Below are positions 29,295 through 35,634 of a stretch of DNA of 46,956 nt, in pieces (positions within the stretch are counted from its first letter, which is position 1; each line of letters starts with the position of its first letter). The DNA is from Akkermansiaceae bacterium. Its GTDB lineage: Bacteria > Verrucomicrobiota > Verrucomicrobiia > Verrucomicrobiales > Akkermansiaceae. Both the position numbers and the translations under genes were made by a program. The stretch lies in the NCBI GenBank assembly GCA_023263995.1, contig JALQTQ010000003.1:1-46956 (forward strand), written 5' to 3'. The notes beneath the pieces are model-generated. The model had not been told where the DNA came from. It worked only from the letters and a program-made list of their open reading frames with translations, and made no database searches.

Positions 29295-30935
29295 TCACTC
29301 AGGACGTGGGGCCTGATGCCAGGCTCCGCCCAGGATGCTGCGGGCGTCGTATCCGTGATTGGCGAGGATGCGGGCCGCGAAGTAACTGGTTTTTCCCATC
29401 TGGCAAACGGTGAAGACCGGACGTGATTGGTCGACTTCCGCAAGGCGATCCCGGAGGGTCGGCAGCGGGATGTTGGTAGCCCCAGGCACGGGAAGTTTTT
29501 CCACCACCGCCGGGGGACGAACGTCGACAATTTGTTCGCCTTCGGCGTCCTCCAATGCTTGCACCGGAATCAAGAGGCCATTCCGCATGTTGGTGGCCGC
29601 AAAGCCCGCGACATTGATGACATCCTTGGCCGAGCCAAAGGGCGGAGCATAGGCCAGCTCGAGGTGCACGAGATCATCGATCGTCATCCTCCCGCGGATC
29701 GCGGTGGCAAGGACATCGAGGCGCTTGTCGACCCCGTCGACCCCCACCGCTTCCGCGCCGAGGAGGCACCCGTCATCAGGTGACCAGAGGATTTTCAGGG
29801 TGATGGTCTCGGCCCCGGGAAAGTAGGAGGCATGCGAGGGACCATTGACAGTCACCGTTTCGTAGGGTGTTTCAGTGGCGGCGAGACGCTTTTCACTCGC
29901 CCCGGTGAGGCCTGCAGCGACTTCAAAAACCCTCACGATGGCGGTGCCGATGGAGCCGGGGTAAGGCTGGGCTTTCTCTCCCCAAAAAATGTGATCAGCA
30001 GCGGTCCGGCCCTGACGGTTGGCTGGGCCCCCGAGAGGAATGGCAGTATGACCGCCGACCAGCGGATCGGGTGACTCACACACGTCGCCCACCGCATAAA
30101 TATCGCCCACATTCGTCCGTTGGTAGGAATCAACAGTGATGTGTCCGCGGGGCCCAATCGCCAAGCCCGCCGCTCTTGCCAGCTGGCTGTCGGGACGCAC
30201 GCCGATCGCGAGGATGACTAGATCAGCCGGAACCTCGCGGCCACTGGTAAGCCGGGCCGTCACGGCGGTTTCGTCGCCCCGGAATCCCTCGATGCCGTCG
30301 CCGAGAATCAAATCGACGCCCCTGGCGCGCAGCTCCCGTTCCAAAGGGCGTGTCATTTCGGGATCGAGCTGCGGCAGAACCTGTCCTTGCAATTCGATCA
30401 AGGAGACCTCCTTGCCGATCTCGATCAATTGTTCGGCCATTTCCAGTCCGATGAAGCCAGCACCCACGATCGTCACCCGTGAGGCCGAAGCGGCAGCAGC
30501 GATGATTCGGTCCATGTCCTGCAGATTGCGCAGGGTGAGGATCTTTTCGTGACCGATTCCGGCAAGGGGCGGACGCACCGGGCTGGCCCCCGGAGAGAGG
30601 ATGAGTTTGTCGTAGGCCATCACTGACTCGGTGCCATCTCTCAACGAGTGCAGCGTGACGGCGCGCTGGACGGGATCGATGGAGGTGGCCTCGGTAAGAG
30701 TCAGGACCTCAAGGTTGAGCAAGGTCCGAAGCGATTCCGGAGTTTGCAACGCCAGTTCCGAGCGTTCGGCGATTTCCCCACCGATGTGGTAAGGCAGACC
30801 GCAGTTCGCGAAAGAAACATCGGGACCCCGCTCGATGAGCGTGATGCGGGCGGATTCGCTGTGGCGTCGGGCCCGAGCGGCTGCAGACGCGCCGCCGGCC
30901 ACGCCTCCGATGATTACGATGTGAGGAGAATTCAT
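29295..30935 (-). CDS. CoA-disulfide reductase-type flavoprotein with C-terminal rhodanese domain
   Basis: 546 residues. The FAD loop (HIVIIGGVAGGASAAARARR) and the active Cys45 in SFANCGLPYHIGG define the CoA-disulfide reductase / NADH oxidase group. A second nucleotide loop VTIVGAGFIGLEMAEQL binds NAD(P)H. The last 90 residues form a rhodanese domain with Cys511 in VCQMGKTSYF. This fusion is known as CoADR-RHD and reduces CoA disulfides, polysulfides or CoA persulfides. A thiol-redox or sulfur-handling role is likely. The gene stands alone, divergent from the Whirly-like gene. Confidence 0.93.
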   Translation of the reverse strand: MNSPHIVIIGGVAGGASAAARARRHSESARITLIERGPDVSFANCGLPYHIGGEIAERSELALQTPESLRTLLNLEVLTLTEATSIDPVQRAVTLHSLRDGTESVMAYDKLILSPGASPVRPPLAGIGHEKILTLRNLQDMDRIIAAAASASRVTIVGAGFIGLEMAEQLIEIGKEVSLIELQGQVLPQLDPEMTRPLERELRARGVDLILGDGIEGFRGDETAVTARLTSGREVPADLVILAIGVRPDSQLARAAGLAIGPRGHITVDSYQRTNVGDIYAVGDVCESPDPLVGGHTAIPLGGPANRQGRTAADHIFWGEKAQPYPGSIGTAIVRVFEVAAGLTGASEKRLAATETPYETVTVNGPSHASYFPGAETITLKILWSPDDGCLLGAEAVGVDGVDKRLDVLATAIRGRMTIDDLVHLELAYAPPFGSAKDVINVAGFAATNMRNGLLIPVQALEDAEGEQIVDVRPPAVVEKLPVPGATNIPLPTLRDRLAEVDQSRPVFTVCQMGKTSYFAARILANHGYDARSILGGAWHQAPRPE

Positions 30936-31137: not shown

Positions 31138-31197
31138 TTTGAAATTTTTTCAAAGGAATCCTTGCTCTTTCCTCAAAAATGTGTTCTCTTGAACACA
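31138..31197. promoter_or_regulatory. Three consecutive inverted repeats just upstream of the Whirly-like gene
   Basis: TTTGAAATTTTTTCAAA (31138-31154) has perfect 7-base arms. AAGGAATCCTT (31154-31164) is a perfect short palindrome. TGTGTTC-TCTT-GAACACA (31180-31197) has perfect 7-base arms and ends two bases before the chosen start codon. Together they may serve as operators or as hairpins around the start site; no protein was matched to them. Confidence 0.4.
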
Positions 31198-31199
31198 CT

Positions 31200-31661
31200 A
31201 TGAGTACAACCACGACAAATCAGGAGGTTAAGACTTACCCGAACGGCTATACCATCTACAAGCCGACCCAACGCGGCAGCGGCGGAGCAGTCGGTCTCAA
31301 CCTTAATGCGAGGAAGAATGCCATCTTTGTCGAAGCTGCCAGCCAAAGCGGTGAACGACAATTTGATTGGGACGCCAAAATTATCATGAAGTGGGGCCTT
31401 GCTGACATCGGAACGGTCCTCTCGGTCCTGCAAGGTCGAACGACGCAGGCCAAGCTGTTTCATAAGACCGAATTGGCCAACAGCTCGTGCGAACTCCTCG
31501 CAAATGAAGAGGGGGAACGCGCGCCGTACACCTGCAAGATCTCCCGGCAGGAGGAGGCGGACAAGTCCTTGCGGCGGGTGACTATCCCGATCACGCACGC
31601 CGAAGCGGCATTGTTGGAAACAGCTCTGCGAACCGCGACCGAGCGCATCATGGGCTGGTGA
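31200..31661 (+). CDS. Whirly-like single-stranded nucleic-acid-binding protein
   Basis: 153 residues from the ATG at 31200; an ATG at 31179 would add seven and start inside an inverted repeat. The sequence aligns by eye with the plant Whirly domain along its whole length. GYTIYK matches the start. GERQFDWDAKIIMKWGLADI (51-70) matches RQYDWSRKQVFSLSVTEIG, and GTVLSVL then KLFHKT matches NLVSL...EFFHDP. VTIPITHAEAALL and ERIMGW at the end match VYIPITKAEFAVL and PHLIGW. The lysine-rich KGKAALT loop that marks plant Whirlies is not conserved (KPTQRGSGGAV here). Whirlies bind single-stranded DNA as tetramers and affect DNA repair and transcription in organelles. A similar role in the nucleoid is inference. 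Confidence 0.72.
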   Translation: MSTTTTNQEVKTYPNGYTIYKPTQRGSGGAVGLNLNARKNAIFVEAASQSGERQFDWDAKIIMKWGLADIGTVLSVLQGRTTQAKLFHKTELANSSCELLANEEGERAPYTCKISRQEEADKSLRRVTIPITHAEAALLETALRTATERIMGW

Positions 31662-31850
31662 CCCCGCCCGCTTGGTAGGACACTGAGTGAGACCCCTTCA
31701 CACACCGAATCTCTCCGAGGAAAATTGCTCAGCCTGTGAGCTGATCAAAGAAGCTTTTTTCCATCTGTTGCAAGTGATCCCCGTGGTCATTTCGTGTTCG
31801 GAATTTTCGATGATTGCCTTCAGAGATGGCCTGATTACCTTTGGGGGCTT

Positions 31851-33266
31851 ATGAAAATTTCACGTCGTCAATTGTTTCAAGGAGGCTTATCTGGCGGGGC
31901 GGCCGGAGTGTTGGCGGGGCCAAGCTTGGCCACCGCGAAAGAAGGTGGGACCCCGAGAGGCGGCGCGAAAAAGCCCAGAGGGATTGTCTTTTGCGTGTCT
32001 GATGGCATGAGCCAGGGGGTGTTGTCGATGACCGAAGCTTTTTCTCGGCAGCTCCGGGGTAAGGGAACCCGCTGGTGGGACTTGATGTCGGGGCAAGAAG
32101 CGGTCATGGGCTTGATGGATACCGCTTCGGCCAGTTCCATGGTCACCGATTCCGCTGCCGCCTCAAGTGCCTGGGGTGGCGGCAAACGGGTTCCCAACGG
32201 AAGGATCAACGTGGATGCCGACGGAAATCATCGGGAATCGATCGGAGAGACCCTGCAAAAAAAGGGGGTCAGAATAGGGTTGGTTTCGACTGCCACCATT
32301 ACCCACGCCACGCCGGCTGGCTTTGCCGCCACCGTGCCGAGCCGCGGTCAGGAACACCAGATCGCCGAGCAATATCTCAATCGCGTCGACGTGCTTCTGG
32401 GAGGCGGTTCACAGTTCTTCAAAAAACAGGGACGGGCTGACCGAAGGGACCTGGCCGAGGAGTTTGCGAAAGCAAAATACGATGTTGTGGGTTCACGGGA
32501 TGAATTGTTGAGGTCTCGATCAAAGAAAATCCTAGGGACTTTTTCTCCTGGCTACCTTCCCTACATGGTCGACTATCATCGGGACAAAGAATTGCAGCAG
32601 CGAATTCCCACTCTGGCGGAGATGGCCGAGGCTGCCTTGTCCCGTTTTCTGCATGATGAAGCTCCTTTTCTCATGCAGCTTGAAGGAGCCCGCATTGATC
32701 ATGCAGCGCACAAGAATGACATCGGCGCGATCCTTCATGAGCAAATCGCTTTTGACGATGCTGTGTCGAAGGTGCTTCAGATGGTCGGCGAGCGCGACGA
32801 GATCCTCGTCATCCTCACCAGCGATCATGGTAATGCCAATCCCGCACTGAACGGCACCGGCCCTGGATATCGTGACACCAACGAGGTTTTCTCGCGCATC
32901 GCCCGGATCAAAGGATCAGCAGAGTCTTTTATGAGCCAATGGAATCGGTCGAAGAAAAAAGACAGCACTGCGATGACCGAGCTCATGGAGTCGGTCTACG
33001 GTTTCAAACCGGCGCTGCCGGAGTTGCAGGCTCTCATGGATCGGTTGGGGGGGAGAAAGGTGACCGAGTGGAGTGATCAACTCTCCAATCCTGAAGGTTT
33101 GTTAGGTCAGATCGTTGGAAACGTCACTGGGACCGGCTGGACGGGTATTGTTCATACTTCGGATCCTACCCAACTGACTGCGCTCGGACCGGGTTCCGAA
33201 AGATTCGGCGGGCTCGTCAGGAATGACTTGGTTCACGGGAAGCTCCTTGAGCTTCTGATGGGTTAG
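31851..33266 (+). CDS. Alkaline phosphatase (PhoA superfamily), Tat-exported
   Basis: 471 residues from the ATG at 31851, which puts a twin-arginine signal at the start (SRRQLFQGGLSGGAAGVLAG). An upstream in-frame start at 31794 would hide it. The active site is clear: Asp51 in CVSDGMSQG binds metal, Ser101 in MVTDSAAASSAWG is the nucleophile, and the later metal ligands lie in ARIDHAAHKND and LTSDHGNANP. It releases phosphate from monoesters in the periplasm. Tat export fits a cofactor-loaded enzyme folded before export. A Pho box was not recognised upstream. Confidence 0.93.
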   Translation: MKISRRQLFQGGLSGGAAGVLAGPSLATAKEGGTPRGGAKKPRGIVFCVSDGMSQGVLSMTEAFSRQLRGKGTRWWDLMSGQEAVMGLMDTASASSMVTDSAAASSAWGGGKRVPNGRINVDADGNHRESIGETLQKKGVRIGLVSTATITHATPAGFAATVPSRGQEHQIAEQYLNRVDVLLGGGSQFFKKQGRADRRDLAEEFAKAKYDVVGSRDELLRSRSKKILGTFSPGYLPYMVDYHRDKELQQRIPTLAEMAEAALSRFLHDEAPFLMQLEGARIDHAAHKNDIGAILHEQIAFDDAVSKVLQMVGERDEILVILTSDHGNANPALNGTGPGYRDTNEVFSRIARIKGSAESFMSQWNRSKKKDSTAMTELMESVYGFKPALPELQALMDRLGGRKVTEWSDQLSNPEGLLGQIVGNVTGTGWTGIVHTSDPTQLTALGPGSERFGGLVRNDLVHGKLLELLMG

Positions 33267-34491: not shown

Positions 34492-35559
34492 TCAGACCGT
34501 TTGGGCCCCTGCGGTGTGCTCGTTGAGTCGCCCCATGACTTCGTCAAGGGACGTGGCCACCTCGTAGTCACCCGGATCACACACCAAAGAAAGCAGGGGC
34601 AAAAGGGAATCCCAAAAACCCCGATGATTTGAATCAGGCCGGTTGTAGATGATCACTTGCTTGCCTTTCATGAGCTCACTGTCTTGCTGCTTGAAAATCA
34701 TCAGTGCGAGAAGCTCCTGGACCGTGCCGGCCCCACCGGGAAAAATGACAAAGGCCGATGAATTCTCAATCATCACTTCCATGCGGGTGTAGATGTCATG
34801 GCGAAGCCAGAAGCGCGCCAAGCCGTCGGGGAGTCCCTCCAACTCGATGATGTGAGGTACATTGGAACCAGCGGTCCATCCTCCAGCGGCCACAGCTCCG
34901 CGGACCACAGCACCCATGATTCCTGATTTTCCGGCACCTGAGACGCAGCCGAAACGATTGGCGGCCAGGCGTCGTCCCAGCTCCTCGCCTTCCGCCAGAT
35001 AGGTCGGATCTTTCAAGGTTGCAGAGCAAAAGACACAGACACTTCCGAGCAGGTCTGGAGGTGGTGGGACGTCATGGGTCGGCAGCACGGTGTCGCATGA
35101 AATTTCGCGCCCCGGGTCCGGGAAGTCTCCCTCCATTGCCAGGTGAAGACGGGCCACAACTTCCTCCGGAGTCGAAGCGGTCAGCAGGAACTCGCGGAAA
35201 TCCTGCTTCACAGTCCCTAATTCCCGCAGGCTCGCCAAGAGTTCAAAGAGTAGATCCCAGGACTCGTCGCTGTTGAGAATCACGGTGGGCTTACGTGCGA
35301 GATGCTTGTCCAAGGTTTGGTATCCCACAAAAATCGAGATGGCCTTGAACATATCTTCAAGCGAGGCCCCCGGGGTGAAGACAAAAGCGTCCGATTCCTT
35401 GAGCTTCTTCTCGATGTTGCAGAGGGTGATCTGTTGATCGCCGTTGGCATTGTAGATGTCCCACCCCGCATTGAAGAGGAGGAATAACAGCTTGGCCCGG
35501 ACCGAACGGCCGGGATCTTTGGCACCAATGACGGTGCCGGAAAGTCTCACAATTGACAT
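34492..35559 (-). CDS. LOG-family (TIGR00730-like) nucleotide phosphoribohydrolase with a degenerate duplicate domain
   Basis: 355 residues from the ATG at 35559 (MSIVRLSGTV). The C-terminal half is a good LOG domain: GSVCVFCSAT, GAGKSGIMGAV, the Arg of WLRHDIYTRMEVM and the signature PGGAGTVQELLAL. LOG enzymes cut nucleoside 5'-monophosphates into base and ribose 5-phosphate. The N-terminal half repeats the same layout but has lost the key residues: DAFVFTPGASLEDMFKAI stands where AFVIFPGGAGTVQELLAL does, and its end (FREFLLTASTPEEVVARL) parallels the C-terminal end. It is divergent from a cytosine deaminase. A hairpin (ACGGTCT-GAG-AGACCGT) spans its stop codon. Confidence 0.85.
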   Translation of the reverse strand: MSIVRLSGTVIGAKDPGRSVRAKLLFLLFNAGWDIYNANGDQQITLCNIEKKLKESDAFVFTPGASLEDMFKAISIFVGYQTLDKHLARKPTVILNSDESWDLLFELLASLRELGTVKQDFREFLLTASTPEEVVARLHLAMEGDFPDPGREISCDTVLPTHDVPPPPDLLGSVCVFCSATLKDPTYLAEGEELGRRLAANRFGCVSGAGKSGIMGAVVRGAVAAGGWTAGSNVPHIIELEGLPDGLARFWLRHDIYTRMEVMIENSSAFVIFPGGAGTVQELLALMIFKQQDSELMKGKQVIIYNRPDSNHRGFWDSLLPLLSLVCDPGDYEVATSLDEVMGRLNEHTAGAQTV

Positions 35560-35634
35560 GACAATGGATGTAGAGCGTTTGATCCGCGTGATTTCCCTCT
35601 CGCGGTGCCCCCAAAGGTAGCCCATTCTGGGAAA

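Follow-up and report, generated by a model that had tools for sequence, protein, structure and literature searches.

Are Whirly proteins confined to plants, and what would one of them do in a bacterium? The question is raised by a gene for a protein of 153 residues in a 46,956-nt stretch of contig JALQTQ010000003.1 from an Akkermansiaceae bacterium (GenBank assembly GCA_023263995.1), hereafter "the window", by which we mean the whole stretch of DNA analyzed. Whirlies are called plant-specific or unique to plants in passages of PMC6963530, PMC12230644, PMC9070903 and PMC11359715, and a sequence-only reading had aligned the product of the window gene with them by eye. Our analysis, in which both homology and predicted fold were computed, shows that the gene, whose frame, strand and length are exactly as that reading gave them (Table 1), encodes a bacterial protein of the Whirly family. 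A chromosomal bacterial family reopens the question of the origin of the plant-organelle Whirlies, and provides hosts of simpler genetics for the study of Whirly function.

Among the passages retrieved from the open-access literature, a body of text that leaves out preprints and most subscription papers, no paper on Whirlies of bacteria, phages or plasmids came to light. A cyanobacterial Whirly (Crocosphaera) has reportedly been claimed, and no open-access paper containing both words was found. The Pfam profile already recognizes the window protein, which could therefore receive an automatic label, so the kind of protein is known, as is the family; what is new here are the ssb-linked, phage-tipped and plasmid forms described below.

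Family assignment and predicted fold

The Pfam Whirly profile (PF08536) matches the window protein with an E-value of 9.6e-7 and a score of 29.2 bits, above the curated cut-off of 23. Whirly is the only Pfam family found at E up to 1, with no match to the OB-fold SSB profile (PF00436) and no PUR family in the same list. A phmmer search against 177,635 distinct PDB sequences returned plant Whirlies in the top six positions (3e-8 to 2e-3), followed by an unrelated sequence at 0.22; sequence searches of solved structures listed plant Whirlies and, at E up to 10, no MRP sequence. The likeness seen by eye is therefore correct and beyond chance. It holds for the central motif, in which GERQFDWDAK aligns with plant GERKYDWEKR, and for the C-terminus, in which IPITHAEAALL...IMGW aligns with VPVTTAEFAVM...IMGW of StWhy2, so that a GER-x-(F/Y)-D-W motif and an A-E-x-A...G-W end are common to both. 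The likeness claimed for the N-terminal GYTIYK is to GYSIYK, which precedes GKAAL in StWhy1; it is again seen by eye, and lies outside the phmmer alignments. In an alignment of 12 bacterial sequences F55, D56, W57 and K60 of the central motif are invariant.

Two features of the higher-plant proteins are missing. As had been noted, the KGKAAL loop is replaced, here by KPTQRGSGGAVG (the position of KGKAAL relative to this loop was set by eye from the StWhy1 chain), in which Y20, P22, G26 and G28 are invariant in the same alignment. The acidic/aromatic C-terminal tail is also absent: whereas parts of PMC6963530 describe an acidic tail in plant Whirlies, the window protein ends in TATERIMGW, i.e. 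with a final W that is not preceded by the acidic residues of an SSB-type tip. Since Whirly-like proteins without KGKAAL are found in algae and Marchantia (passages in PMC9070903), only the higher-plant subtype is excluded by the missing motif; the family is not.

Structure models of the window protein, built as monomers, predict two four-stranded antiparallel sheets with a helix after each, which is the Whirly fold. In structural alignments (taken from VIA-align lists, in which the absence of a family does not exclude that family) the protein is 21–25% identical to plant Whirlies (StWhy1, StWhy2, AtWHY1-3); the sequence homology to them extends over residues 32–153. The trypanosome guide-RNA-binding proteins MRP1 and MRP2, which were found by structure and not by sequence searches, are 13–14% identical, and the structural match to PUR-domain proteins (PURA; Borrelia Pur-alpha) is much weaker than that to Whirly. 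The protein differs from its plant relatives in its location on a bacterial chromosome, and the claim that it is bacterial proved right: the MnmG encoded on the contig is 79–83% identical to near-full-length copies in 19 other genomes of the genus (fragments in G011 show 74 and 83%) and at most 73% identical to copies outside it. Pfam domains of MetK, SAH hydrolase and a class I tRNA synthetase are encoded on the same contig.

Relatives on chromosomes, phages and plasmids

Whole-genome searches covered the phylum of the window, Verrucomicrobiota, and one scan of genome contigs gave two loci. In the sample of the order, 93 of 386 genomes and 15 of 50 genera are positive, 89 of the 93 with a single match; in the sample of the phylum, 52 of 387 genomes and 33 of 198 genera are positive, 46 of these 52 genomes lying outside the order. 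A tree of 77 rows of our own choice, with plants represented by domain segments only, groups the window protein with that of a metagenome-assembled genome labelled Prosthecobacter debontii (L002), then with two genomes from another genus of the same family. Plants join this subfamily, with a long-branch warning.

The tree places 27 proteins from outside the order in one diverged group (support 98/96), a second subfamily whose members start with a sequence of the pattern FYHPN-x-(K/R)-G-x-G. Its whirly gene follows an ssb gene on the same strand in 13 of 20 loci, with eight gaps of 3–61 bp, three of 275–505 bp and two overlaps, which are an effect of choosing the longest frame. Pfam searches with ten of the 13 upstream proteins identified every one as an SSB of PF00436 (108–123 bits); 8 of the 13 end in PF. 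This linkage is the strongest functional link that we found within bacteria.

A third branch is found in phages. The window protein itself matches none of 50,697 phage records and nothing in PHROGs, which speaks against a phage gene in the window. The neighbors of the phage Whirly genes include genes for a DnaB-like helicase, Toprim, a PD-(D/E)XK nuclease, PHP, a polymerase-exonuclease and a DnaE polymerase. The dnaE gene ends at most 250 bp upstream of the Whirly gene in 25 of 61 distinct loci and is present anywhere in the stretch in 45, and a glycosyltransferase frame starts within 250 bp past the Whirly stop in 52; because the stretches differ in length, these counts are lower bounds. An acidic tail, absent from the window protein, is carried by most phage Whirlies, which share with bacterial OB-fold SSBs an acidic tip. 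Their typical ends (DDDAPF, EDVPF, DDIPW, DDDLW) may be compared with the SSB-Ct peptide of E. coli, WMDFDDDIPF (given in a passage of PMC10164576). A C-terminal F or W is present in 46 of the 61 distinct proteins, (A/I/V/D)-P-(F/W) in 16, and 42 combine an aromatic end with at least three D/E among the ten final residues. Among the first 25 this strict rule selects 17, vs 13 of 299 other open reading frames (ORFs) from the same loci. In the phage module, the PD-(D/E)XK nuclease likewise carries an acidic-aromatic tail (DLFDF, DPLDF; e.g. L078:1688-2671, L082:1708-2667, L100:1716-2723), and makes up nine of these 13 control ORFs.

Two further observations concern the phage loci. A conserved protein of ~254 aa (L023:11746-12510 and its homologs) is encoded near the Whirly gene in 55 of 61 stretches. 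Its likeness to Rad52-type single-strand annealing proteins was seen by eye, and was not borne out by any convincing match in Pfam, PHROGs or PDB. In L018 (1466-4944) dnaE is split into two frames. NUMOD4 and HNH matches, along with a weak match to an intein, fall in the first of them, and probably mark an intein with a homing endonuclease.

The fourth branch, carried by plasmids, was reached through the one plasmid match of the window protein, which is itself weak (0.8). The protein of plasmid pTK9001 (L016:5647-6426) bears the motif VFGGKGALEF...GERAYDW, and among 72,556 plasmid records a tblastn search with it (E up to 0.01) hit 1225, of which 982 are typed as conjugative. Most of the 1225 are enterobacterial; the listed rows of that kind match about half of the query or less at 28–32% identity (E 1e-4 to 8e-3), and their membership is therefore weakly supported. 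All listed rows for this family are named "hypothetical protein". When six members, the pTK9001 protein and five others, were put to Pfam, five listed Whirly below the cut-off (16.2–22.9 bits), while the member from an E. coli IncC plasmid had no Pfam Whirly match on its own. A profile of six sequences found in the PDB only plant Whirlies (three matches, the best at 1e-4), with GGKAAL paired to KGKAAL.

The family members in pTK9001, L270, L271, L272 and L273 have a motif of the type GGK(A/G)AL, which closely resembles plant KGKAAL. Nucleoid-protein genes lie shortly upstream of the plasmid Whirly-like genes in L270 (4115-4471) and L273 (4439-4840), both MvaT/MvaU, and in L271 (4080-4355, HU). 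The IncC candidate (L269:4926-5417, 163 aa) is distant; its gene is immediately preceded by one for a 3'-5' exonuclease and followed by one for a replication-terminus-binding protein, and the membership of the IncC group is unproven.

Proposed role and its rivals

We consider it rather likely that the window protein, for which we infer DNA binding, is an accessory coat of single-stranded DNA (ssDNA) beside the OB-fold SSB, and that its tipped phage cousins most likely act as replicative SSBs. By analogy to plant Whirlies it would form a tetramer, with ssDNA laid across the beta-sheets with little sequence preference, and would protect strands exposed at forks, breaks or R-loops against nucleases and illegitimate annealing. 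It would thus share the coating function of the bacterial OB-fold SSB, from which it differs in fold and family and in having no acidic tip, so that it should not recruit replisome partners in the way SSB does. An OB-fold SSB is encoded in all 20 Whirly-bearing bacterial genomes tested, which together with the absent tail argues for an accessory coat, not a hub. In a phage without its own OB-fold SSB, the tipped Whirly would serve as both coat and hub, and in one phage group Whirly is probably itself the SSB. Such a phage protein would combine a non-OB domain with an interaction tip of the SSB type, and leads to the testable claim that what an SSB requires is a coat for ssDNA and a tip, irrespective of fold. 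For the tail of plant Whirlies, a function like that of the SSB tail has already been suggested in part of PMC6963530.

The distribution of SSB among the phages bears on this proposal. OB-fold SSB was found in 5 of 42 records of one set and 24 of 50 of the other (92 records), by a search with PF00436 only, other viral SSB families not being sought, and with six of the 61 distinct proteins lacking a searched record; absence is weak evidence, since phage records are often fragments. In records of at least 35 kb, grouped into 50 clusters and with the tip taken as an F/W end, SSB is present in five and absent from 31 of the F/W-ended clusters, and present in 12 and absent from two of the others (Fisher p 3.6e-6). 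L020 was counted as SSB-bearing on the strength of L021, a longer record of that virus, in which an SSB is present. Several of the phage OB-fold SSBs are themselves tipped (e.g. DDIPF). We regard this contrast as a lead, not as proof.

A number of results weigh against the proposal. Five of the 36 F/W-ended clusters do possess an OB-fold SSB, and the tree reduces the contrast to four independent comparisons, about 1.6 in favor, none against and the rest flat, so that as an independent test it fails, being confounded by relatedness. In the phage branch, the proteins of L018, L023 and L026 fall below the Pfam Whirly threshold on their own, the core phage profile reaches plant Whirlies only at E 0.27–0.57 (yet these are its only three hits), Foldseek comparisons of the phage model with Whirly give modest E-values (6.5e-4 to 7.6e-3), and among predicted viral structures that model has no named or convincing relative, with one match at E<=0.001 and a TM-score of 0.35. 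On the bacterial side, the plant 24-mer-assembly motif is replaced in the window protein. The gene is an exception in its genus, where none of the 26 other genomes matches the protein and a profile search adds only G026, weakly (9.8e-5). No conserved neighbor, and no ssb gene, was found around the window copy, in 20 regions from relatives, or in L001 and L002; the role proposed for this subfamily is therefore deduced from family and fold. Binding need not be lost with the motif, since in plants KGKAAL integrity is tied to 24-mer assembly and not to the binding of short ssDNA (part of PMC6963530).

The best-surviving alternative, which we nevertheless hold to be improbable, is that the window protein organizes the nucleoid or regulates genes, coating or bridging the chromosome or binding promoter DNA, with no part in ssDNA repair. 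Plant WHIRLY1 is described, in the portions of the literature available, as a nucleoid organizer and transcription factor, and some plasmid relatives adjoin genes for proteins of the MvaT family and HU; but the second subfamily mostly lies behind ssb and the phage branch lies among replication genes, neither of which indicates gene regulation. The earlier interpretation, a nucleoid or repair factor perhaps close to the ancestor of the family, is partly supported. Still less probable than the nucleoid or regulatory role is a mobile-element or phage gene of recent acquisition, without a housekeeping function in this genome. Such an origin would fit the absence from the other genomes of the genus, the low identity there (~30%) of the neighboring oxidoreductase, and the presence of related families in phages and plasmids. 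However, the gene recurs in other genera of the order, nearly always as a single match, no neighbor is conserved across the relatives' regions, the protein groups in the tree with chromosomal copies and not with the phage branch, and housekeeping genes, mnmG, metK and that of the tRNA synthetase among them, share its contig. An RNA-binding protein of the Whirly/MRP type, for instance an annealing chaperone for RNA, is the least probable of the three, since sequence searches of solved structures list plant Whirlies and, at E up to 10, no MRP sequence, and the neighbors in the second subfamily and the phage branch are DNA-replication genes.

Those neighbors, found in bacteria and phages alike, suggest that the Whirly family is an old microbial tool for DNA protection. 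A wider reading, to which we give an even chance, is that Whirly did not originate in plants and is an ssDNA-binding family widespread among prokaryotes, in which at least four branches can be told apart (stand-alone chromosomal, as in the window, ssb-linked chromosomal, phage and plasmid), that in one large group of uncultured phages it replaces the OB-fold SSB, with an SSB-like tip and near the DnaE-type polymerase of the phage itself, and that plants inherited or captured a member.

The locus and its neighbors

Table 1. Whirly-like gene of the window, its motifs and adjacent frames
Feature	Position	Strand	Remarks
Whirly-like gene	31200..31661	+	153 aa plus stop; predicted beta4-alpha-beta4-alpha
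Loop replacing plant KGKAAL	31257..31286	+	codons 20-29, Y-K-P-T-Q-R-G-S-G-G
Counterpart of plant R-K-Y-D-W	31356..31379	+	codons 53-60, R-Q-F-D-W-D-A-K
C-terminal helix ending G-W	31596..31658	+	codons 133-153; protein stops there, without acidic tail
Antisense open frame, 141 codons	31173..31598	-	shadow frame, not taken to be a gene
Pyridine nucleotide-disulphide oxidoreductase with rhodanese domain	29295..30935	-	neighbor, context only; CoA-disulfide-reductase-like in our reading
Alkaline phosphatase family protein	31794..33266	+	neighbor, context only

The best matches of the oxidoreductase (61–63% identity) lie in other families of the order, which suggested a mis-binned contig. This explanation is rejected by the within-genus identity of MnmG, according to which the contig belongs to the genus and the locus is genus-atypical; it may have arisen by transfer or by loss. 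Relatives were found to have the LOG-family gene (34492-35625) that flanks whirly, and the analysis covered four such regions, two of them short contigs. The other 15 window genes tried are all missing from the vicinity of the LOG-family gene there, and an empty site is therefore unreadable. An alternative in-frame ATG at 31179 would extend the window protein by seven residues, and the frame opposite the whirly gene is also open in many relatives.
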